64,000 nucleotides of DNA. Source: Sphaerobacter thermophilus DSM 20745 (GTDB lineage Bacteria > Chloroflexota > Chloroflexia > Thermomicrobiales > Thermomicrobiaceae). The stretch covers positions 744,001-808,000 of the forward strand of contig NC_013523.1 in NCBI RefSeq assembly GCF_000024985.1. The letters run 5' to 3'. The position numbers and the translations under genes are program-made. A model generated the notes under the pieces. The model had not been told where the DNA came from. It saw nothing but the letters and a program-made list of their open reading frames with translations, and searched no databases. Of this stretch, positions 38,202 to 47,857 are shown one piece after another (position 1 is the stretch's first letter; each line of letters opens with the position of its first letter).

Positions 38202-41030
38202 TTGGACGAGGGAGGCTGGGCCCGCCCAAGGGCTCTGGGCGCGGATCTCGGACGCGCAAGGTCAGCGAGGAGCCGCGCATGGTCTGGGCGCCTCCGCACC
38301 ATCGGTCCGCGCGAGTGGTCCCGGCGTGTCCAACTTGCGCTGCTCGTCGTCATCGGTGTCCTCGCCCTGGGTCTCACGCTGACGACTGCGCTTCTCCCCG
38401 TTTCGGCGACCAGCCCCCTTGCGCCCATCTTCGCCGGGCTCGGAGCCGCCAGTTTCGTCTACCGCTGGCTGCGGCGATACCGGGGCGTGCCGCCGCGGCC
38501 CCTCTGGACCGTCCTCGAAGCCTTCGCCGTGTTGCTCGTGACCGCTGCCGGTGGCGGGTGGCTGTCGCCCCAGGGGTTGCTGGCGCTGGCGCTGATCTAC
38601 GCGGGGTTGTGCTACCGCTCGCTGGGTGCGTCATGGCCGCAAGTCGTCGGAGGGGTGGTGCTCTACCTGGTGGCGCACGTGGCGGGAGTCATCGCCGCAG
38701 CGTCAGGACATCCGGCAGACCAGGAGTTGCTCGCTGGGGTGTTGCAGGCGCCGGGATTCGCCGTTTCGGCGGTGGTGTCCCGGGTGTTGGCCGAGGTGCT
38801 GGAGCGGCACGAGCGTGCCGCGGCCGGGGAGCGGGTTCTGCTGCGTGCCGGGAAGACGCTGGCGGGCATGTCGAGCGCCGAGCAGGTCCTGGAGTCGGTC
38901 GTGGAGGCGCTCCAGAGCATTGCGGACCAGGCTTCCGTGGCGGTGCGGGCTGTTGCGGCGGTGAGGGGCGGCCGTTGGATCGAAGCGGTTGCCGGTCCGG
39001 GAAGGACTGTGCGCCTTGGCCCGGCCGAACCACCCTCGCTCCCCTGGACGTATGCGGCCGACCTCCAGAGCGGGCGGGTCGTCGAGTGTGCCCTTGGAGA
39101 GGCCGATCGAGGGGCATTCGGGATCGAGGAGGAGGCCGAACAGGCCGTCGTGGTGCCGCTGGTCCACGGGAGTCGCCTCGCCGGGCTGATCGTCGTAGCC
39201 GCCAGCCCGAAAGTGCCGGACGGACTGCGTTACGCCGCCGAGGCCCTCGCCCAGCCGGCCCTGGTGGCGCTCAACCGGCTGGCGTCGACCGACGACCTGC
39301 GACGTCGGGAAGCCTCCTTCCGGGCGTTGGTGCAGCATTCGTCCGACATGCTCCTGATCGTCGGCCTGGACTCCCGCATCCGATACCAGACGCCCGCAGT
39401 GGAGCGACTGCTCGGCTACCGCTCTGCCGAGCTGGTGGGACGGCGGCTGGTTGAGCTGGTTCACCCAGATGACGCACAGACGGTTGCCGCGTTCATCGAC
39501 AGGGTGGCAGCGACGCAAAGACGCTTAGGGCCGGCCGAGTGGCGCTTCCGGTGCGCCGACGGCTCGTGGCTCCACGCAGAAACGGTCGCCACCAACCTGC
39601 TGCGCGACGCGCATGTCGGCGGGATCGTGCTCACGACCCGCGATGTCACGGAGCGGAAGCGCGCCGAGGCCGAGTGGCGGCACCGGGCATATCACGATCC
39701 GCTCACGAACCTCCCGAATCGCGCGTTCTTCATGGATCGCCTCCAGTCCTCGCTCGCAGCGGGACAGCGCCGGAGCGACGCGGTGGCGGTCCTCTTCGTG
39801 GACCTGGATGGGTTCAAAGAGGTCAACGACACCCTCGGCCATGAGGCAGGGGACCGGCTACTGGTCGAGCTCGCGGACCGACTCCGTCGCGCCCTGCGCG
39901 AACAGGACGTGATCGCGCGCCTGGGCGGCGACGAGTTCGCCATCGTCCTCGTCGATGTGGTGGAACCGAATGACGCCGTGCAGACGGCCGAGCGGATCCT
40001 GGACCGCCTGCGGGAGCCGGTCCTGCTGGACGGCCAGCCCATCCCGATCCGCGCCAGCATCGGCATCGCGCTTGGGACGCCCGGTCGCGATCGGCCGGAC
40101 ACCGTTCTCCGGCAAGCCGACAGCGCGCTGTACGCTGCGAAGCGGGCCGGCAAGTCCTGCTATGCCCTTTACGACGAACAACTGGCGAGACCGGCGCTGG
40201 AGCAGGGAGAACTGGCTCGGGAGCTGCGGGCCGCGCTCGAGTCCGGCAGGCTCACGCTCTACTACCAGCCCCTCGTCGTGCTGCTCGATGGGCGGATCGG
40301 GGAAGTCGAAGCCCTCTTGCGCTGGGATCACCCGCAGCGCGGCCTGCTCCTGCCCTCCCAGTTCCTCGACCTGGCCGAGGAGACGGGTTTGATCTTGCCG
40401 ATCGGCTACTGGGCGTTGGAGGAGGCATGCCGGCAGGTGCGGTCCTGGCAGAAAAAGCGCCCGAGCACGCTGCCGCTCACGCTGGCGGTGAACCTGTCTG
40501 CCCGGCAACTGCGGGAGCCGGGTGTCGCGGCCGCGATCGGGCGAGTGCTGGCGCGGACCGACTTTGACCCGCGCCACCTCAGGGTGGAGGTCAGCGAGGC
40601 CGTCGTCCTGGCCGAGCCGGAAGCGGTGAAGACGCTGCAGGCGCTGCGAGCGCTCGGTGTCCGCATCGCCATCGATGACTTCGGTGCAACCGCGGCGGCG
40701 CTAACACCCCTGACCCAACTGCCGGTCGACGCGCTGAAGATCGACGGAGTCTGGGTGGCCACTCTCGGGGAGGGAGCACGCGAGTCGGCTCTGGTGCGCG
40801 GCGCTGTGGCCTTCGCCAAGGCCAAGGGTCTGACCATCATCGCTGAAGGGGTGGAGACGGCGGCACAGGCGCGCCAGCTCCGGGAACTTGGCTTCGACCG
40901 GGGGCAGGGGTATTACTTCTCCGGTCCGCTGACCGGTGACGCCATCTACCGCTTGCTCCGCGGCGAGACGTGTGGCGCCTCCCGAGGGAACGACGGCACT
41001 ACGGAGATGCTGATCGTGCACGACGCCTAG
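38202..41030 (+). CDS. Membrane PAS-GGDEF-EAL cyclic-di-GMP protein
   Basis: 942 aa from a TTG preceded by GGGGGTGG; no better start is visible. Order: N-terminal membrane region of about five helices (residues 43-175), a GAF-like stretch (about 200-355), a PAS domain (about 370-485), GGDEF (about 500-660) and EAL (about 675-930). The cyclase motif is intact (RLGGDEFAIVL), with the inhibitory RxxD (REQD) five residues before it. EAL catalytic residues appear intact: EVEALLRWDHP, NLSARQL, EVSEAV, LKIDGVW and IAEGVE. Loop 6 reads DDFGATAAAL rather than DDFGTGYSSL. It may do both, or be mainly one activity. Confidence 0.92.
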   Translation: MDEGGWARPRALGADLGRARSARSRAWSGRLRTIGPREWSRRVQLALLVVIGVLALGLTLTTALLPVSATSPLAPIFAGLGAASFVYRWLRRYRGVPPRPLWTVLEAFAVLLVTAAGGGWLSPQGLLALALIYAGLCYRSLGASWPQVVGGVVLYLVAHVAGVIAAASGHPADQELLAGVLQAPGFAVSAVVSRVLAEVLERHERAAAGERVLLRAGKTLAGMSSAEQVLESVVEALQSIADQASVAVRAVAAVRGGRWIEAVAGPGRTVRLGPAEPPSLPWTYAADLQSGRVVECALGEADRGAFGIEEEAEQAVVVPLVHGSRLAGLIVVAASPKVPDGLRYAAEALAQPALVALNRLASTDDLRRREASFRALVQHSSDMLLIVGLDSRIRYQTPAVERLLGYRSAELVGRRLVELVHPDDAQTVAAFIDRVAATQRRLGPAEWRFRCADGSWLHAETVATNLLRDAHVGGIVLTTRDVTERKRAEAEWRHRAYHDPLTNLPNRAFFMDRLQSSLAAGQRRSDAVAVLFVDLDGFKEVNDTLGHEAGDRLLVELADRLRRALREQDVIARLGGDEFAIVLVDVVEPNDAVQTAERILDRLREPVLLDGQPIPIRASIGIALGTPGRDRPDTVLRQADSALYAAKRAGKSCYALYDEQLARPALEQGELARELRAALESGRLTLYYQPLVVLLDGRIGEVEALLRWDHPQRGLLLPSQFLDLAEETGLILPIGYWALEEACRQVRSWQKKRPSTLPLTLAVNLSARQLREPGVAAAIGRVLARTDFDPRHLRVEVSEAVVLAEPEAVKTLQALRALGVRIAIDDFGATAAALTPLTQLPVDALKIDGVWVATLGEGARESALVRGAVAFAKAKGLTIIAEGVETAAQARQLRELGFDRGQGYYFSGPLTGDAIYRLLRGETCGASRGNDGTTEMLIVHDA

Positions 41031-41306: not shown

Positions 41307-42170
41307 GTGTATTGCGCACAGTGCGGTACGAGCAATGACCCCGGTGGCGACACCTGCGATGTGTGTGGTGCCCCGCTGACGGCTGGAGCCGGCCCGGAGC
41401 GCTGCCCGTCGTGCGACGCACTGATCTCCGTTCATGACCGCTACTGCGGGTCGTGTGGGGCGTCGCTCGTCGGGCCGGAAGCCGCACGGTACGAGCCGGG
41501 GCCGAGCTTTGTTGACGACTCCAACCTGGAGGTCGATCCGGCGACGCTTCCGCCCTGGCTGCGGGACGTGGTCGACGGCTCACCCGCCACCGTCCAGCCG
41601 GCGACCGAGTCGCTGAATGGCGAGCAGATGCCGGAATGGCTCCGGGCGACGCGGCCCGATTTCGGACCGTCCGCGGCGCCGGTCCCGCCGGGCGCGGAGA
41701 CGAGCAGCGAGCCGGTCGGGGCGGCAGGAGGCTTCTCCCTGATCGGTGAGGATGACCTGCCGGAGTGGCTACGCGCGCTGGGCGAGGAAGAGACCGATGC
41801 CCCGGCGTCCCCGATGCGCGACGAGTCGCCCGCTCCCGTGGCCGCGGTGGCGGAGGTGCCGCGCGTTAGTCGCGCCTGGCTCGAGCGGCCGCGGACGATC
41901 GACCCGGCAGCGGAGGCGTCGGCGCGCCAGCAGTTCGCTCCCCTTGAAGGTGAGTCCGTCGCGGGGAGTGTCGCTCTTGGGGCCGTGCCCGCGGCAGCGC
42001 CCGCATCCGTGAGTCCCGTGGAGCCGGTACCCGCGGAGCCGGTTGGTGTAGTGCCGCCCAAGAACGACGCCGAGCGGCGGAAGCGCCGGGTGCGCATCCT
42101 GATTCTGCTGCTGGCGCTGGCGGTCCTGGCTCTCCTGCTGGTGCTCTACACGGAAGGCAGCCTGGCATGA
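41307..42170 (+). CDS. Zinc-ribbon protein with repeated PxWLR motifs and C-terminal membrane anchor
   Basis: 287 aa; GTG start behind GGGAGGTCCAG. Two zinc ribbons open the protein (Cys 3, 6, 17, 20 and Cys 33, 36, 47, 50). A low-complexity Pro/Ala/Glu-rich region of about 200 residues follows. In it the motif LPPWLR (81-86), MPEWLR (108-113) and LPEWLR (151-156), plus a degenerate SRAWLER near 190, recur in acidic surroundings. A basic stretch RRKRRVR precedes one helix (about 258-280), leaving a cytoplasmic protein with a tail anchor. Its function is unknown. It is translationally coupled (four-base overlap) to the MutL-like gene. Confidence 0.8.
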   Translation: MYCAQCGTSNDPGGDTCDVCGAPLTAGAGPERCPSCDALISVHDRYCGSCGASLVGPEAARYEPGPSFVDDSNLEVDPATLPPWLRDVVDGSPATVQPATESLNGEQMPEWLRATRPDFGPSAAPVPPGAETSSEPVGAAGGFSLIGEDDLPEWLRALGEEETDAPASPMRDESPAPVAAVAEVPRVSRAWLERPRTIDPAAEASARQQFAPLEGESVAGSVALGAVPAAAPASVSPVEPVPAEPVGVVPPKNDAERRKRRVRILILLLALAVLALLLVLYTEGSLA

Positions 42171-43948
42171 CAGGGATCAACGTGGAGCGCTCGAGCGACG
42201 CCAGCAGCGGCGTCGAGACATTCCCGACGCAGGCAGGGGTGAATGGCCCGCAGACGCGCGACGCGGTCCTGGTGGTGGACGTCGACGGGGCCGCAGCCAG
42301 GGCGCTGTTATTCGACATGGTCGAGGGCTCGCCGCGCTTCGTCGCGGTGGGGGTGAGCCGTTCGACAGCGGTACCGCCGCTGGATGACCCCGCTCCTGGG
42401 ATCGTCCGCGCTATCCGCGACCTGGAGGAGCAGACCGGGCGCGCATTGATCGACGGCGAGCAGCTCATCACCCCGCAGCGCCCGAACGGTGACGGGATCG
42501 ACGCCTGCTTCGTGACCGGAATGCCTGTGCCGCCGCTGCGCACCGCGCTGATCACCGTCGGCCAATCCGACCTGCGCCGGGAGCTGGCGTCTGCGGCTCG
42601 GCGGACGACGACCATTCTGGCCGACTCAACTGAGGATCTGCCCGAAGGGGACGGAACCGTCTCGTCGACGGCCCTGCGCGAATGGCTGGCGCTGGCACGA
42701 CCGGAGACCGTCGTACTGCTCTGCGCGGGCGGCACGCCGGACGATTGGACGGTGGTGCTCGACGCGGTGGCCGACCTGGCGCGGGACGGTGTGGTCCGGT
42801 CGGGGATCGTCGTCAGCGACGACGCACACCAGCAGCAGGCAGCGGCTGCGCTCGGCAGCATCCTCGATCTCAGCGGGACGGATCCGAGCACGGTCGACGC
42901 GCGCGAGATCGCGAGCGCGCTGGAGTCGGAGCTGCGCGCCGCCTACGCTCGGCGGGTGAGTGAGGCGTCCAGCGGGCGGTTGCTGGCGGCCGCCCGATTC
43001 GTGGATCGGCCGCATGCGGTGCAGTCGGTCACCGCCTTCCTCAACCGGCGCATGGGCAGGAATGTCCTGGCCATATCGATGAGCGAGGGCACTGTCCTCC
43101 AGGCGGCGCTGGAAGGCCGTGGTGCAGCGGTGCATCGCGCCGAGCGCGACCTTGGCAGCGGGGTGCGCTCGCTGCTGGCGATCCCGCCTGAAGAAGTGCT
43201 GCGCTGGCTGCCGGCTCGGACCTCCACCGAGGATGTCACCCAGTGGATCCTCAACCGTGCCCTTCGCCCGTTCACGGTCATGGAATCCCAGGCCGATCGC
43301 CTGATGGCCGCCGCGCTGCAGCGGGAGTTGTTGGTGCGGCTGGTCCGTGAGGCCGGGCTGCCAGAGCAACCGGACGTGGATCTGATCGCGGCGGGGCCGG
43401 CGTCCCCCGGCGAGTCCCTCATGCTGACCGTTCTCACGCTGCTCGATGGAATTCAGCCGACCCCCGCTGCGGGCGTGGTGTCGGTGGCGGCGGATCTGGA
43501 GGGGATGATGGTATCCGCGGGCGCCATCGCCGGCAGCGACCCGGCCTACGCCCGCGATGTCCTGGAGCAGGACTTCCTCACACCGCTTGCGACCTGCATC
43601 GTGATCACCGGGAGCGCCCCCGAAGGCGCGCTGGCGGTGCGCGGCGAACTGCGGCGCGAGGGCGGCGAGTCCACCCGCTTCAGCGTTCCGGCCGGGAGCC
43701 TGCACCGGCTACCGTTGCCCGAGGGGGAAACTGCTACCTTGATCCTGGAGCCGGAGCCGGGCTTCGCCGTCGGGAAGCGCGAGCCGGGCGAGGTAGTGCG
43801 GCTGGAAGGTGAGCAGCAGGTCTTCGGGGCAGAGCTGGGCGTGATCATCGACGCCCGCGGCCGGCCGATCAGCCTGCCGGACGACCGCGAGGCACGCGTG
43901 GCACGGCTGCAGTCCTGGCTCGCAGACCTCGGTGTACCGGCGGAATAG
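42167..43948 (+). CDS. MutL/GlmL-like ASKHA-fold protein, degenerate
   Basis: 593 aa, ATG overlapping the previous stop. The N-terminal half follows the glutamate mutase L family pattern: VLVVDVDGAAARALLFDMVEG near residue 34, then GIVRAIRDLEEQTGRALID and FVTGMPVPPLRTAL. The first phosphate motif, DFGST in active members, reads DVDGA here. The second half adds a segment with VSVAADLEGMMVSAGAIA and a beta-rich tail. GlmL proteins are thought to reactivate or chaperone B12 mutases. No mutase gene is near, so a non-canonical scaffold role is likely. Confidence 0.65.
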   Translation: MTGINVERSSDASSGVETFPTQAGVNGPQTRDAVLVVDVDGAAARALLFDMVEGSPRFVAVGVSRSTAVPPLDDPAPGIVRAIRDLEEQTGRALIDGEQLITPQRPNGDGIDACFVTGMPVPPLRTALITVGQSDLRRELASAARRTTTILADSTEDLPEGDGTVSSTALREWLALARPETVVLLCAGGTPDDWTVVLDAVADLARDGVVRSGIVVSDDAHQQQAAAALGSILDLSGTDPSTVDAREIASALESELRAAYARRVSEASSGRLLAAARFVDRPHAVQSVTAFLNRRMGRNVLAISMSEGTVLQAALEGRGAAVHRAERDLGSGVRSLLAIPPEEVLRWLPARTSTEDVTQWILNRALRPFTVMESQADRLMAAALQRELLVRLVREAGLPEQPDVDLIAAGPASPGESLMLTVLTLLDGIQPTPAAGVVSVAADLEGMMVSAGAIAGSDPAYARDVLEQDFLTPLATCIVITGSAPEGALAVRGELRREGGESTRFSVPAGSLHRLPLPEGETATLILEPEPGFAVGKREPGEVVRLEGEQQVFGAELGVIIDARGRPISLPDDREARVARLQSWLADLGVPAE

Positions 43949-43965
43949 ACGGAGGAAGCGGCCGA

Positions 43966-45132
43966 ATGGCGCTGCAGGTGACGACCTTCGAGCCCGTCAT
44001 CGTCGAGGACGCGGTCTTTCTCATTGAACGGGTAGTCAGGACCGCGGGCGAGGTCACGGCGCGCGTGAACGACCTGGTCGAGCCGGAGACGAAGCTGGCA
44101 ACTGAGTCCAGTGAGGCCGGTCGGACCTTGACGCTCCACCTGGCGCGCGAACTGGGCGTCGCGCCCAACACGGTATCGCGCTACCTGACCAAGCCGATCG
44201 GTTCGGCCTTCCAGGCCGGCGAGGCCGTGGCCCGAACGCGGCGCGGGTTGCGCGTCATCACCGCCTCAGCGCCGAGCGCGGGGACGCTGACGGCGGTCGA
44301 CGAGGCGACCGGGACGGCAACCCTGGCGCCGGAGGCTCCGACCAGGGAGTTGCCGGCCCTGGTCTACGGTCAGGTGGACACGGTGCTGGAAGGGCGCGGC
44401 GCGCTAATCCGCGCCAGCGGTGCCCGGCTGCGCGGCACATTCGCCGTGGGAGGCGAGGTCTGGGGCCCGCTGAAGGTGGCGATCGACCGCCCCGACCGGG
44501 AGCTGACCCCGGACGCCATTACGCCCGACCTTTCCGGGGCGGTGGTGCTGGGCGGGATGACCCTCGGTGCCGCGGCCATGCGCCGATTGGCCGAGGTCAG
44601 TGCCCGGGCCGTCATCGTCGGCAGCGTCAGCGAGGCCGAGGTGCGCAGGGTGCTCTCTCCGTCGGAGGTGCTGCCGCCTGCGGGAGTGTGGCGGTCTCTC
44701 GGCCGCGGTCGCGCCCTGGCGGCCGGTTCCGAACGGGCACCGGTGACCGTCTTCGTCACCGAGGGCTTCGGCCGCTGGCCGATGGCGGCGCCGATCTTCG
44801 ACTTCCTGGCGCGCCGGGAGGGCCAGGTCGCCAGTCTGCTGGTACCGCGGGACGGCGCGGCACCCGAAGCGCCGCCGGAACTGTATTTCACAGTGGCGAC
44901 GGTTGAGGACGACGCGAGCATCCAGCGCATCGAGCCGGCCGACGGCGTGGTTGCGCGGCTGGTTGACCCGACACACCTCGGCACGGTCGTGACCTGCCGC
45001 GGCGGCGTGCTGCTCGAGCGCGGGCCGTTCGGTGCCCAGGAGGTGGTGGAGGTCGAGTTCACCACGGGCACCCGCCGTCGCGTTCCTCTGGCGAATCTGG
45101 AACTGCTCACCGCCGAGGCGCAGTCGAGCTAA
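43966..45132 (+). CDS. Uncharacterised beta-rich protein of the MutL-like operon
   Basis: 388 aa, 17 bases after the MutL-like gene. The family is not recognised by eye. The N-terminal 85 residues contain acidic strands and GVAPNTVSRYLTKPIGSAFQAGEAVA, which resembles lipoyl/biotinyl-type barrels or RnfC-like hairpins. The middle has LSGAVVLGGMTLGAAAMRRL and RAVIVGSVSE, consistent with an alpha/beta domain. A FVTEGFGRWPMAAPIFDFL segment lies near residue 262, and the end is a beta domain. No signal peptide, membrane helix or catalytic motif is evident. Co-transcription with the zinc-ribbon and MutL-like genes suggests a common complex. Confidence 0.7.
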   Translation: MALQVTTFEPVIVEDAVFLIERVVRTAGEVTARVNDLVEPETKLATESSEAGRTLTLHLARELGVAPNTVSRYLTKPIGSAFQAGEAVARTRRGLRVITASAPSAGTLTAVDEATGTATLAPEAPTRELPALVYGQVDTVLEGRGALIRASGARLRGTFAVGGEVWGPLKVAIDRPDRELTPDAITPDLSGAVVLGGMTLGAAAMRRLAEVSARAVIVGSVSEAEVRRVLSPSEVLPPAGVWRSLGRGRALAAGSERAPVTVFVTEGFGRWPMAAPIFDFLARREGQVASLLVPRDGAAPEAPPELYFTVATVEDDASIQRIEPADGVVARLVDPTHLGTVVTCRGGVLLERGPFGAQEVVEVEFTTGTRRRVPLANLELLTAEAQSS

Positions 45133-45155
45133 GGCTTTGTTCTTGAGCGGTCCGA

Positions 45156-45216
45156 GCCCCGTCACCCTCTGGCCCCCTCTCCCGCTGCAGGAGAGGGGGC
45201 CAGAGGGTGACGGGGC
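45156..45216. repeat. 27-bp perfect palindrome, dispersed-repeat candidate
   Basis: Arms 45156-45182 and 45190-45216 are perfectly complementary with a seven-base loop. The core GGCCCCCTCTCCC is shared with the hairpin at 28623-28635. It lies right after a convergent gene end and resembles REP-like elements. Confidence 0.7.
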
Positions 45217-45240
45217 ACGACCACGAGCGCGGCGTCCGCG

Positions 45241-45287
45241 CCACACGAAACGAGCCGGAGCGCAACGCTCCGGCTCGTTTCGTGTGG
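45241..45287. terminator. 22-bp perfect hairpin between convergent transcripts
   Basis: Arms 45241-45262 and 45266-45287 pair perfectly around a 3-nt loop (core GAGCCGGAGCG). There is no T-run beyond the arm, but placement between the MutL-like operon and dnaK suggests a bidirectional terminator. Confidence 0.7.
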
Positions 45288-45310
45288 CGTTCGGCGTTGG
45301 CCGCGGGGAT

Positions 45311-47227
<1,917 letters not shown>

Positions 47228-47269
47228 GCTGCAGTCCTCCGTCACACTCGAACGTCCGCGCGACCCGCG

Positions 47270-47857
47270 TTACGCATCCGTGGGGGCCCGCCCATCTCCA
47301 CTGGTCGCCTGCCCGACCTTCACGATCGCGGGGCGTAGGACGCGGTCGTGCAGCAGATAGCCGCGTTGGAACTCCTGGACCACGGTGTCGGCCGACTCTG
47401 CGCCCTCCTCGACGGTCACGGCCTCGTGCAGCGCCGGGTCGAACGGCTTGCCCACCGCTTCGATCGGGCGGACGCCTTCTGCCTCGAGGATCGACCAGAG
47501 CTTCCGCTCGATCAGCAGAATCCCCTGAATCCACGGGTCGTCGCGGTGCTCGGCGGGCACCGACTCCACAGCGCGGTTCAAGTCATCCAGTACCGGGAGC
47601 AGGCGAGCGATCAGGTTCTCACTAGCATGCTTGCGGATCTCCTGGACCTCCTGCTCGGTGCGGCGCCGGAAGTTGATGAGTTCGGCGCGCGCGCGCTGTG
47701 CCTGCTCCAGGTACTCCGCGGCTCGCGCGCGCTCCTGCTCAAGCAGGTTCTGCAGTTCCTGCGCGCTGGGTTCTTCCGTCGGTGGTGCTTCTGCCTGGTC
47801 GTCGCCGGTCGTAGTGGTCTCGTCCGGCGCCGGGGTTGGATCCTGTCGCTCGTCCAT
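47270..47857 (-). CDS. grpE: Nucleotide exchange factor GrpE
   Basis: 195 aa. It releases ADP from DnaK. There is an acidic, disordered N-terminus of about 35 residues, then a long coiled coil (ELQNLLEQERARAAEYLEQ, LINFRRRTEQEVQEIRKHA). The beta-domain has signature-like LLPVLDDLNRAVE near residue 85 and VVQEFQRGYLLHDRVLRPAIVKVG near 162 (in part). It is between hrcA and dnaK with short gaps of about 30-45 bases. Confidence 0.96.
   Translation of the reverse strand: MDERQDPTPAPDETTTTGDDQAEAPPTEEPSAQELQNLLEQERARAAEYLEQAQRARAELINFRRRTEQEVQEIRKHASENLIARLLPVLDDLNRAVESVPAEHRDDPWIQGILLIERKLWSILEAEGVRPIEAVGKPFDPALHEAVTVEEGAESADTVVQEFQRGYLLHDRVLRPAIVKVGQATSGDGRAPTDA

Follow-up and report, generated by a model that had tools for sequence, protein, structure and literature searches.

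Three adjacent genes at positions 41307-45132 of a 64,000-nucleotide stretch of the Sphaerobacter thermophilus DSM 20745 genome (contig NC_013523.1, positions 744,001 to 808,000; hereafter, the window) encode a zinc-ribbon protein with a membrane tail anchor (ZR), a homolog of the glutamate mutase accessory protein MutL/GlmL (P2), and a three-domain protein (P3). We consider it likely that their products form one membrane-tethered complex, built on an ASKHA scaffold that has become a pseudo-ATPase, and that this is a reduced form of a widespread envelope complex. The evidence comes from a conserved operon, from the folds and motifs of the proteins, and from a larger gene cluster that recurs in many phyla.

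The operon and its three proteins

The genes all lie on the forward strand (Table 1); ZR and P2 share a four-base overlap (ATGA), P2 and P3 are separated by 17 bases, and the ZR frame begins with GTG, 5 bases after a GGGAGG. Among 151 Chloroflexota genomes, P3 was found in 90 and P2 in 91; 86 have both, 9 only one, and 56 neither (Fisher p=2e-30, kinship ignored). The two genes are adjacent in 70 of the 86 genomes with both. Together with the Fisher test, this conserved order indicates that the arrangement is not due to chance. It also supports the proposal of an earlier note, made from the sequence alone, that the tightly packed frames are one operon, which is a conserved unit; the coordinates it gave are exact. 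Of the 16 non-adjacent cases, one falls at contig ends and 15 are in the window's class (Chloroflexia type; the names Thermomicrobia, Chloroflexia, Anaerolineae, and Ktedonobacteria are assigned here from kinship labels and gene content). Tight linkage is thus not essential, and the neighbors of these unlinked P3 genes (response regulators, ATP synthase) give no functional clue. Ratios of nonsynonymous to synonymous substitution (dN/dS) against two congeners are 0.21/0.35 for ZR, 0.11/0.34 for P2, and 0.11/0.32 for P3, indicating that all three genes are under purifying selection and none is decaying.

ZR is, as the earlier note described it, a zinc-ribbon tail-anchored protein, with a PF12773 match, four CxxC, and one C-terminal membrane segment. 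The linker between ribbons and membrane segment looks disordered and holds three P-x-W-L-R motifs; 0.046 copies of P-x-W-L would be expected, and 0 of 20000 shuffles of the protein reached the 3 observed. A ZR gene with such motifs lies one or two genes upstream in 30 Chloroflexota neighborhoods, with 1-49 copies in zinc-ribbon or related proteins. The probable means of anchoring varies by lineage. The ZR of Anaerolineae and Chloroflexia continues into two membrane segments with an extracytoplasmic domain between them; that of Ktedonobacteria-like genomes has a basic or amphipathic tail (GLFEAIREWLSR) at its end; and the GlmL-like protein of Chloroflexia may itself carry terminal W-L-R motifs and a basic tail. 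These several lineage-specific anchors suggest that membrane attachment of the assembly matters. One ZR-related protein (L111:11394-15836, reverse strand; 1480 residues) has 49 P-x-W-L motifs, many in near-identical units (PAWLREEAAPAAGSDV), and is a recently expanded repeat array.

The window P2 itself has no match at E<=1 in Pfam or NCBIfam, and a PDB sequence search with its profile gave chance-level matches only. However, phmmer links it to relatives with strong matches to PF13941 (MutL/GlmL), which is matched by 34 of 48 relatives (E<=0.01). The AlphaFold model of P2 (predicted local distance difference test [pLDDT] 92, predicted template modeling score [pTM] 0.91) shows the duplicated RNase-H-like actin fold, with structural matches to acetone carboxylase (Z 12.9), FtsA (Z 11.7-12.8), PilM (Z 11-11.5), and ParM (Z 10.8); DnaK/Hsp70 is the top Foldseek match. 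By its modeled fold, P2 belongs to the ASKHA superfamily, consistent with the GlmL-like fold that had been proposed. In an alignment with true GlmL genes adjoining GlmS or GlmE (L108, L109), the phosphate-1 region reads VVDVDGAAAR instead of LIDFGSTYTK, in agreement with the earlier reading of DVDGA for DFGST, and the other two ATP motifs are also lost (DFGST.T, DVGGATTD, and GTGG in full). This predicts that the window P2 does not bind or hydrolyze nucleotide. The earlier idea of a repurposed ASKHA scaffold stands as to the fold and the missing phosphate motif, but the loss is mostly confined to Thermomicrobia: that group lacks the phosphate-1, phosphate-2, and adenosine motifs throughout, and most relatives elsewhere have them intact. 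P2 relatives also have a C-terminal module whose signature, LGxxIDARGRPLxL, is kept in nearly all of them and missing from true GlmL; within it, the residues D562 and R564 are the same in all of 48 P2 sequences. Since this signature persists nearly everywhere, whereas the nucleotide motifs are lost in Thermomicrobia, the module, not ATP, looks like the constant function.

The earlier note recognized no family for P3, and indeed the window P3 has no Pfam match; its model (pLDDT 90, pTM 0.86), however, shows a three-domain protein, and relatives are present in many phyla. The N-terminal barrel-sandwich hybrid (BSH) domain resembles those of RnfC_N/NqrA_N proteins (PF13375 in 9 of 42 relatives; an RNF subunit at Z 8.1). 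Unlike RnfC and NqrA, P3 has no detected electron-transfer domains, and a swivel-like and a KOW domain come after its BSH. The swivel-like domain matches RraA (Z 9.3), pyruvate kinase (Z 8.3), and aconitase-X (Z 8.0) by structure comparison only. The C-terminal domain resembles the KOW domains of NusG/Spt5 by both sequence and fold (PF00467 in 4 relatives; NusG, Spt5, and ribosomal proteins at Z 7-8; NusG as top Foldseek match). In contrast to NusG/Spt5, no NGN match is listed for P3, though an NGN domain may still be there, and P3 neighbors membrane proteins. With Z near 8, these modeled domain identities are suggestive; those of BSH and KOW also agree with sequence profiles.

Table 1. Features of the three-gene operon (window coordinates)
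Feature	Position	Strand	Details
ZR protein	41307..42170	+	287 aa; double zinc ribbon, disordered linker with W-L-R motifs, C-terminal tail anchor
Double zinc ribbon, four CxxC	41313..41459	+	PF12773 E=1.1e-9
Short linear motif TLPPWLR, copy 1	41544..41564	+	
Short linear motif QMPEWLR, copy 2	41625..41645	+	
Short linear motif DLPEWLR, copy 3	41754..41774	+	
Single C-terminal transmembrane segment (tail anchor)	42090..42146	+	residues 262-280, hydropathy 3.18; RRKRRVR just before
P2, MutL/GlmL-like ASKHA protein	42167..43948	+	593 aa; nucleotide motifs lost
Degenerate phosphate-1 region	42266..42304	+	VLVVDVDGAAARA
Rossmann-like insert domain	42524..42958	+	residues 120-264; VIA-align to Rossmann folds, Z about 10-11.5
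Degenerate phosphate-2 region	43058..43102	+	RNVLAISMSEGTVLQ
Degenerate adenosine region	43370..43414	+	PDVDLIAAGPASPGE
P2 C-terminal module	43580..43945	+	contains LGVIIDARGRPISL; residues 472-593; absent from true GlmL; D562, R564 invariant
P3 protein	43966..45132	+	388 aa
P3 BSH domain, RnfC_N-like	43999..44355	+	
P3 swivel-like beta/alpha domain (RraA, aconitase-X, pyruvate-kinase C-terminal type)	44365..44898	+	contains TEGFGRWPM; structure only
P3 KOW/SH3-like C-terminal domain	44929..45123	+	

A membrane cluster in many phyla

Loci of the Anaerolineae and Chloroflexia types have, ahead of the GlmL-like and P3 genes, genes for DUF6754 (PF20539), C9 (a five-segment membrane protein), C2 (a long form of ZR whose terminal part is an extracytoplasmic domain), and C6 (a polytopic membrane protein). 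DUF6754 genes adjoin GlmL-like and P3 genes in many other phyla as well. A single-pass scan of 84,980 species genomes yielded 452 relatives of C6, and the best 80 of the 452, with phyla taken from record titles, include Latescibacterota, Cloacimonadota, WOR-3, Zixibacteria, Gemmatimonadota, Armatimonadota, Eisenbacteria, Riflebacteria, Poribacteria, Planctomycetota, Bdellovibrionota, Calditrichota, Eremiobacterota, and others. The cluster of this membrane quartet with GlmL-like and P3 genes recurs in more than 15 phyla, with the order DUF6754-C9-C2c-C6 near constant. Of 46 genomes chosen by C6 alone, 44 contain a GlmL-like gene and 42 contain P3; 41 contain both, and in 26 of these the two genes adjoin. 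The GlmL-like copies read from C6-chosen genomes keep DCGSTTTK or DxGSTTTK. A small protein of ~98 residues and a YcxB-like protein are two more recurrent partners.

The window has the GlmL-like protein with its C-terminal module and P3, and not the quartet. The two genomes of the window's family tested (G000 and G007) lack DUF6754, and 14 genomes of the window's order lack C6. The trio is thus best read as a reduced form of a system of six genes, four of which encode a membrane module. The earlier suggestion of an undescribed membrane-associated trio stands as to the conserved unit, which is not confined to Chloroflexota. The parts have known folds, and we found no description of the assembly; no paper in the open-access collection searched mentions DUF6754 or PF13941, and GlmL appears there only as a mutase chaperone (PMC4682846), a coverage outside which most subscription journals and preprints fall.

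Natural fusions connect the same proteins. A single open reading frame joins GlmL-like and P3 sequences in four genomes (L268/L280, L281, L282, and L283). In the Cloacimonadota genome L268, a zinc ribbon (PF12674), a GlmL-like protein, and P3 are fused in the order of the window operon, followed by DUF6754-C9-C2c-C6. This arrangement is the strongest indirect sign that a physical complex exists, and such gene fusions make both the complex and its tethering by ZR likely.

In a tree of GlmL-like proteins, the Chloroflexota sequences stand apart from other phyla, except for two Chloroflexota metagenome-assembled genomes (MAGs) from the C6 scan, which are placed among those phyla. Members from the window's order make up a single supported group, on long branches. 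Many non-Chloroflexota members from distant phyla are strikingly close, with end branches of about 0.1-0.35. True GlmL falls inside the family on a long branch, so the order of origin of GlmL and the GlmL-like proteins is not readable from the tree.

The layout of the cluster varies in some genomes. In WOR-3 and others (L276, L271, L254, L253, L251, L209, and L200), the quartet is found in 2-3 tandem copies, and the DUF6754 proteins of these genomes have N-terminal extensions of variable length. In Latescibacterota and one Gemmatimonadota MAG (L198, L201, L206, and L227), P3 lies directly before DUF6754, and the GlmL-like gene is elsewhere or was not found.

Proposed complex and alternative explanations

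We propose that ZR sits in the membrane by its tail, where its zinc ribbons and P-x-W-L-R repeats would hold P2 and P3, directly or via a chain. P2 would be an actin-like body and the probable hub, binding P3 (BSH, swivel-like, and KOW), with the C-terminal module as its constant working part. In the widespread and presumably ancestral form, an ASKHA protein with ATP motifs may act, together with P3, as a nucleotide-driven switch on the quartet of DUF6754 and three unnamed membrane families. Thermomicrobia would have lost both this membrane module and the ATP site, so that only a static scaffold is left, which ZR keeps at the membrane. As a history of the system, we give about an even chance that a new membrane machine, now in more than 15 phyla, long ago took on a GlmL-type ASKHA ATPase as its cytoplasmic motor or switch, and that Thermomicrobia made it a static scaffold through these two losses. 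Conservation of the proteins over great distances suggests a probably basic role for the system at the envelope.

Several points weigh against this explanation. The physical complex is deduced from genes and single-protein models, the nucleotide loss of P2 is read from motifs alone, and the single-domain structural matches of P3 are middling (Z 7-9). P3 is unlinked in the 15 Chloroflexia-type genomes. The fusion and window zinc ribbons belong to different Pfam families (PF12674 and PF12773), and at least some of the fusions are paralogs in genomes that also hold separate copies.

In most genomes sampled, a GlmL-like family annotated as a B12-enzyme accessory sits in an undescribed membrane system, which is common to many phyla that have been little studied (WOR-3, Riflebacteria, Latescibacterota, Zixibacteria, Cloacimonadota, and others). 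This corrects misleading annotations of the "glutamate mutase L" type, offers a concrete six-gene set, and would provide a natural case of an actin-like ATPase turning into a pseudo-ATPase while its partners stay.

FtsA and PilM are membrane-linked ASKHA scaffolds that bind short peptides of their partners, and P2 may work in a similar way, as an actin-like body at the membrane with probable short-peptide docking. A separate alternative is that the trio is an FtsA-like division factor, in which the ASKHA protein and P-x-W-L-R mimic FtsA and the FtsZ tail (D-I-P-x-F-L-R), and ZR is a multivalent FtsZ-tail mimic. The best VIA-align matches of P2 include FtsA, also in its FtsZ-peptide-bound form; FtsZ tails of the same phylum are DIPxFLR, akin to the motif; and the Thermomicrobia genomes G000 and G007 have no match near the FtsA cut-off. 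We nonetheless regard this division role as unlikely. P2 is not a sequence member of FtsA/PilM, coexists with FtsA, and has other partners. A match over the FtsA cut-off (TIGR01174) is found in 146 of the 151 genomes, including nearly all with the trio, so we rejected FtsA replacement across the phylum. The two motifs differ consistently (W versus F), and Thermomicrobia have an altered FtsZ tail (SEPAILRFLRER) but an unaltered W-L-R; a shared partner there seems unlikely, which weakens the idea that ZR mimics the FtsZ tail on the same partner.

Separately, Thermomicrobia show an apparent loss of FtsA with a changed FtsZ tail. The best FtsA matches in G000 and G007 have E 9e-29 and 7e-18, compared to about 1e-120 in most other genomes, and FtsZ at L182, L186, L189, and L190 has the C-terminal peptide SEPAILRFLRER instead of DIPxFLR.

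The KOW, BSH, and zinc-ribbon domains could also mean that the trio works in transcription or on RNA, bound to RNA polymerase or ribosomes, with the membrane anchor incidental. A profile search with P3 finds Thermus RNA polymerase beta-prime (E=1.3e-4) and, at a weak level, NusG/Spt5 KOW domains; NusG heads the Foldseek matches; and the Thermomicrobia locus is near an rny-like gene and dnaK-grpE-hrcA. However, the polymerase match is limited to a short part of the BSH, many proteins with no relation to each other have BSH and KOW folds, the constant neighbors outside Thermomicrobia and Ktedonobacteria are four membrane proteins, and membrane anchors are kept by different means across lineages. 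We consider this explanation unlikely as well.

As GlmL is described as a chaperone that reactivates glutamate mutase (PMC4682846), P2 might be a diverged GlmL that reactivates a B12 mutase encoded elsewhere, with P3 and ZR as accessories. P2 shares the fold, detectable homology, and a ~450-residue core with MutL/GlmL (PF13941; NCBIfam TIGR01319, NF040745). When GlmS/GlmE were searched for in the window and the neighborhoods, true GlmL genes (L108-L110) were the only ones with B12 mutase subunits next to them; there were none at the trio or the 80 loci from other phyla, and one stray B12-binding open reading frame at L116. No link of the trio to B12 mutases was thus found in these loci, in line with the earlier note, which saw no B12 mutase nearby. 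That note named two outcomes that would refute it, genes rarely found together or a middle protein next to intact mutases in most genomes, and the survey showed neither. The P2 family differs further from MutL/GlmL in its extra C-terminal module of ~120 residues and in P3, which is nearly always in the same genome and usually next door. It falls below NCBIfam cut-offs: the well-conserved copy of L234 is far under those for GlmL and Or-4 and under that for the GlmL family (score/cut-off 229/475, 213/600, and 167/204). The window P2, like that of Thermomicrobia in general, has also lost the ATP motifs that a reactivase needs. Altogether, we consider a reactivase very unlikely. That the trio genes are merely conserved neighbors with no common function is least credible of all: P3 does stand apart from the rest in Chloroflexia-type genomes, but co-occurrence is near-perfect even where the genes are unlinked, and natural fusions exist.

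Genomic context

Cell-wall genes gave a further lead, which we retain as a hint only. The mur genes lie beside ftsA in all 20 trio genomes checked. Of 20 genomes without the trio, 7 no longer have mur genes at this place, and 12 trio-less genomes keep mur. Because the losses are probably one lineage event, and given the 12 that keep mur, a tie to peptidoglycan is no stronger than that. The seven trio-less Chloroflexota (L287, L290, L293, L295, L298, L300, and L302) have mraZ-mraW-ftsA-ftsZ joined without mur genes, matching the cell-wall gene loss published for Dehalococcoidales/SAR202 (PMC10608941).

Just upstream of the operon, at 38202-41030, is a PAS/GGDEF/EAL gene found in this placement only in the window's genus (cluster C23); it is probably a recent insertion between the operon and the conserved upstream block. 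A 768-codon frame antisense to dnaK (45032-47338) is most likely a high-GC artifact. Rfam showed no RNA family between 38 and 49 kb of the window, and PADLOC gave no anti-phage defense match. Between the P3 gene and the convergent dnaK lie two long, near-perfect GC-rich hairpins (45156-45217 and 45243-45294; fold z-score -13.9), which are either a double terminator or an inserted palindromic element.

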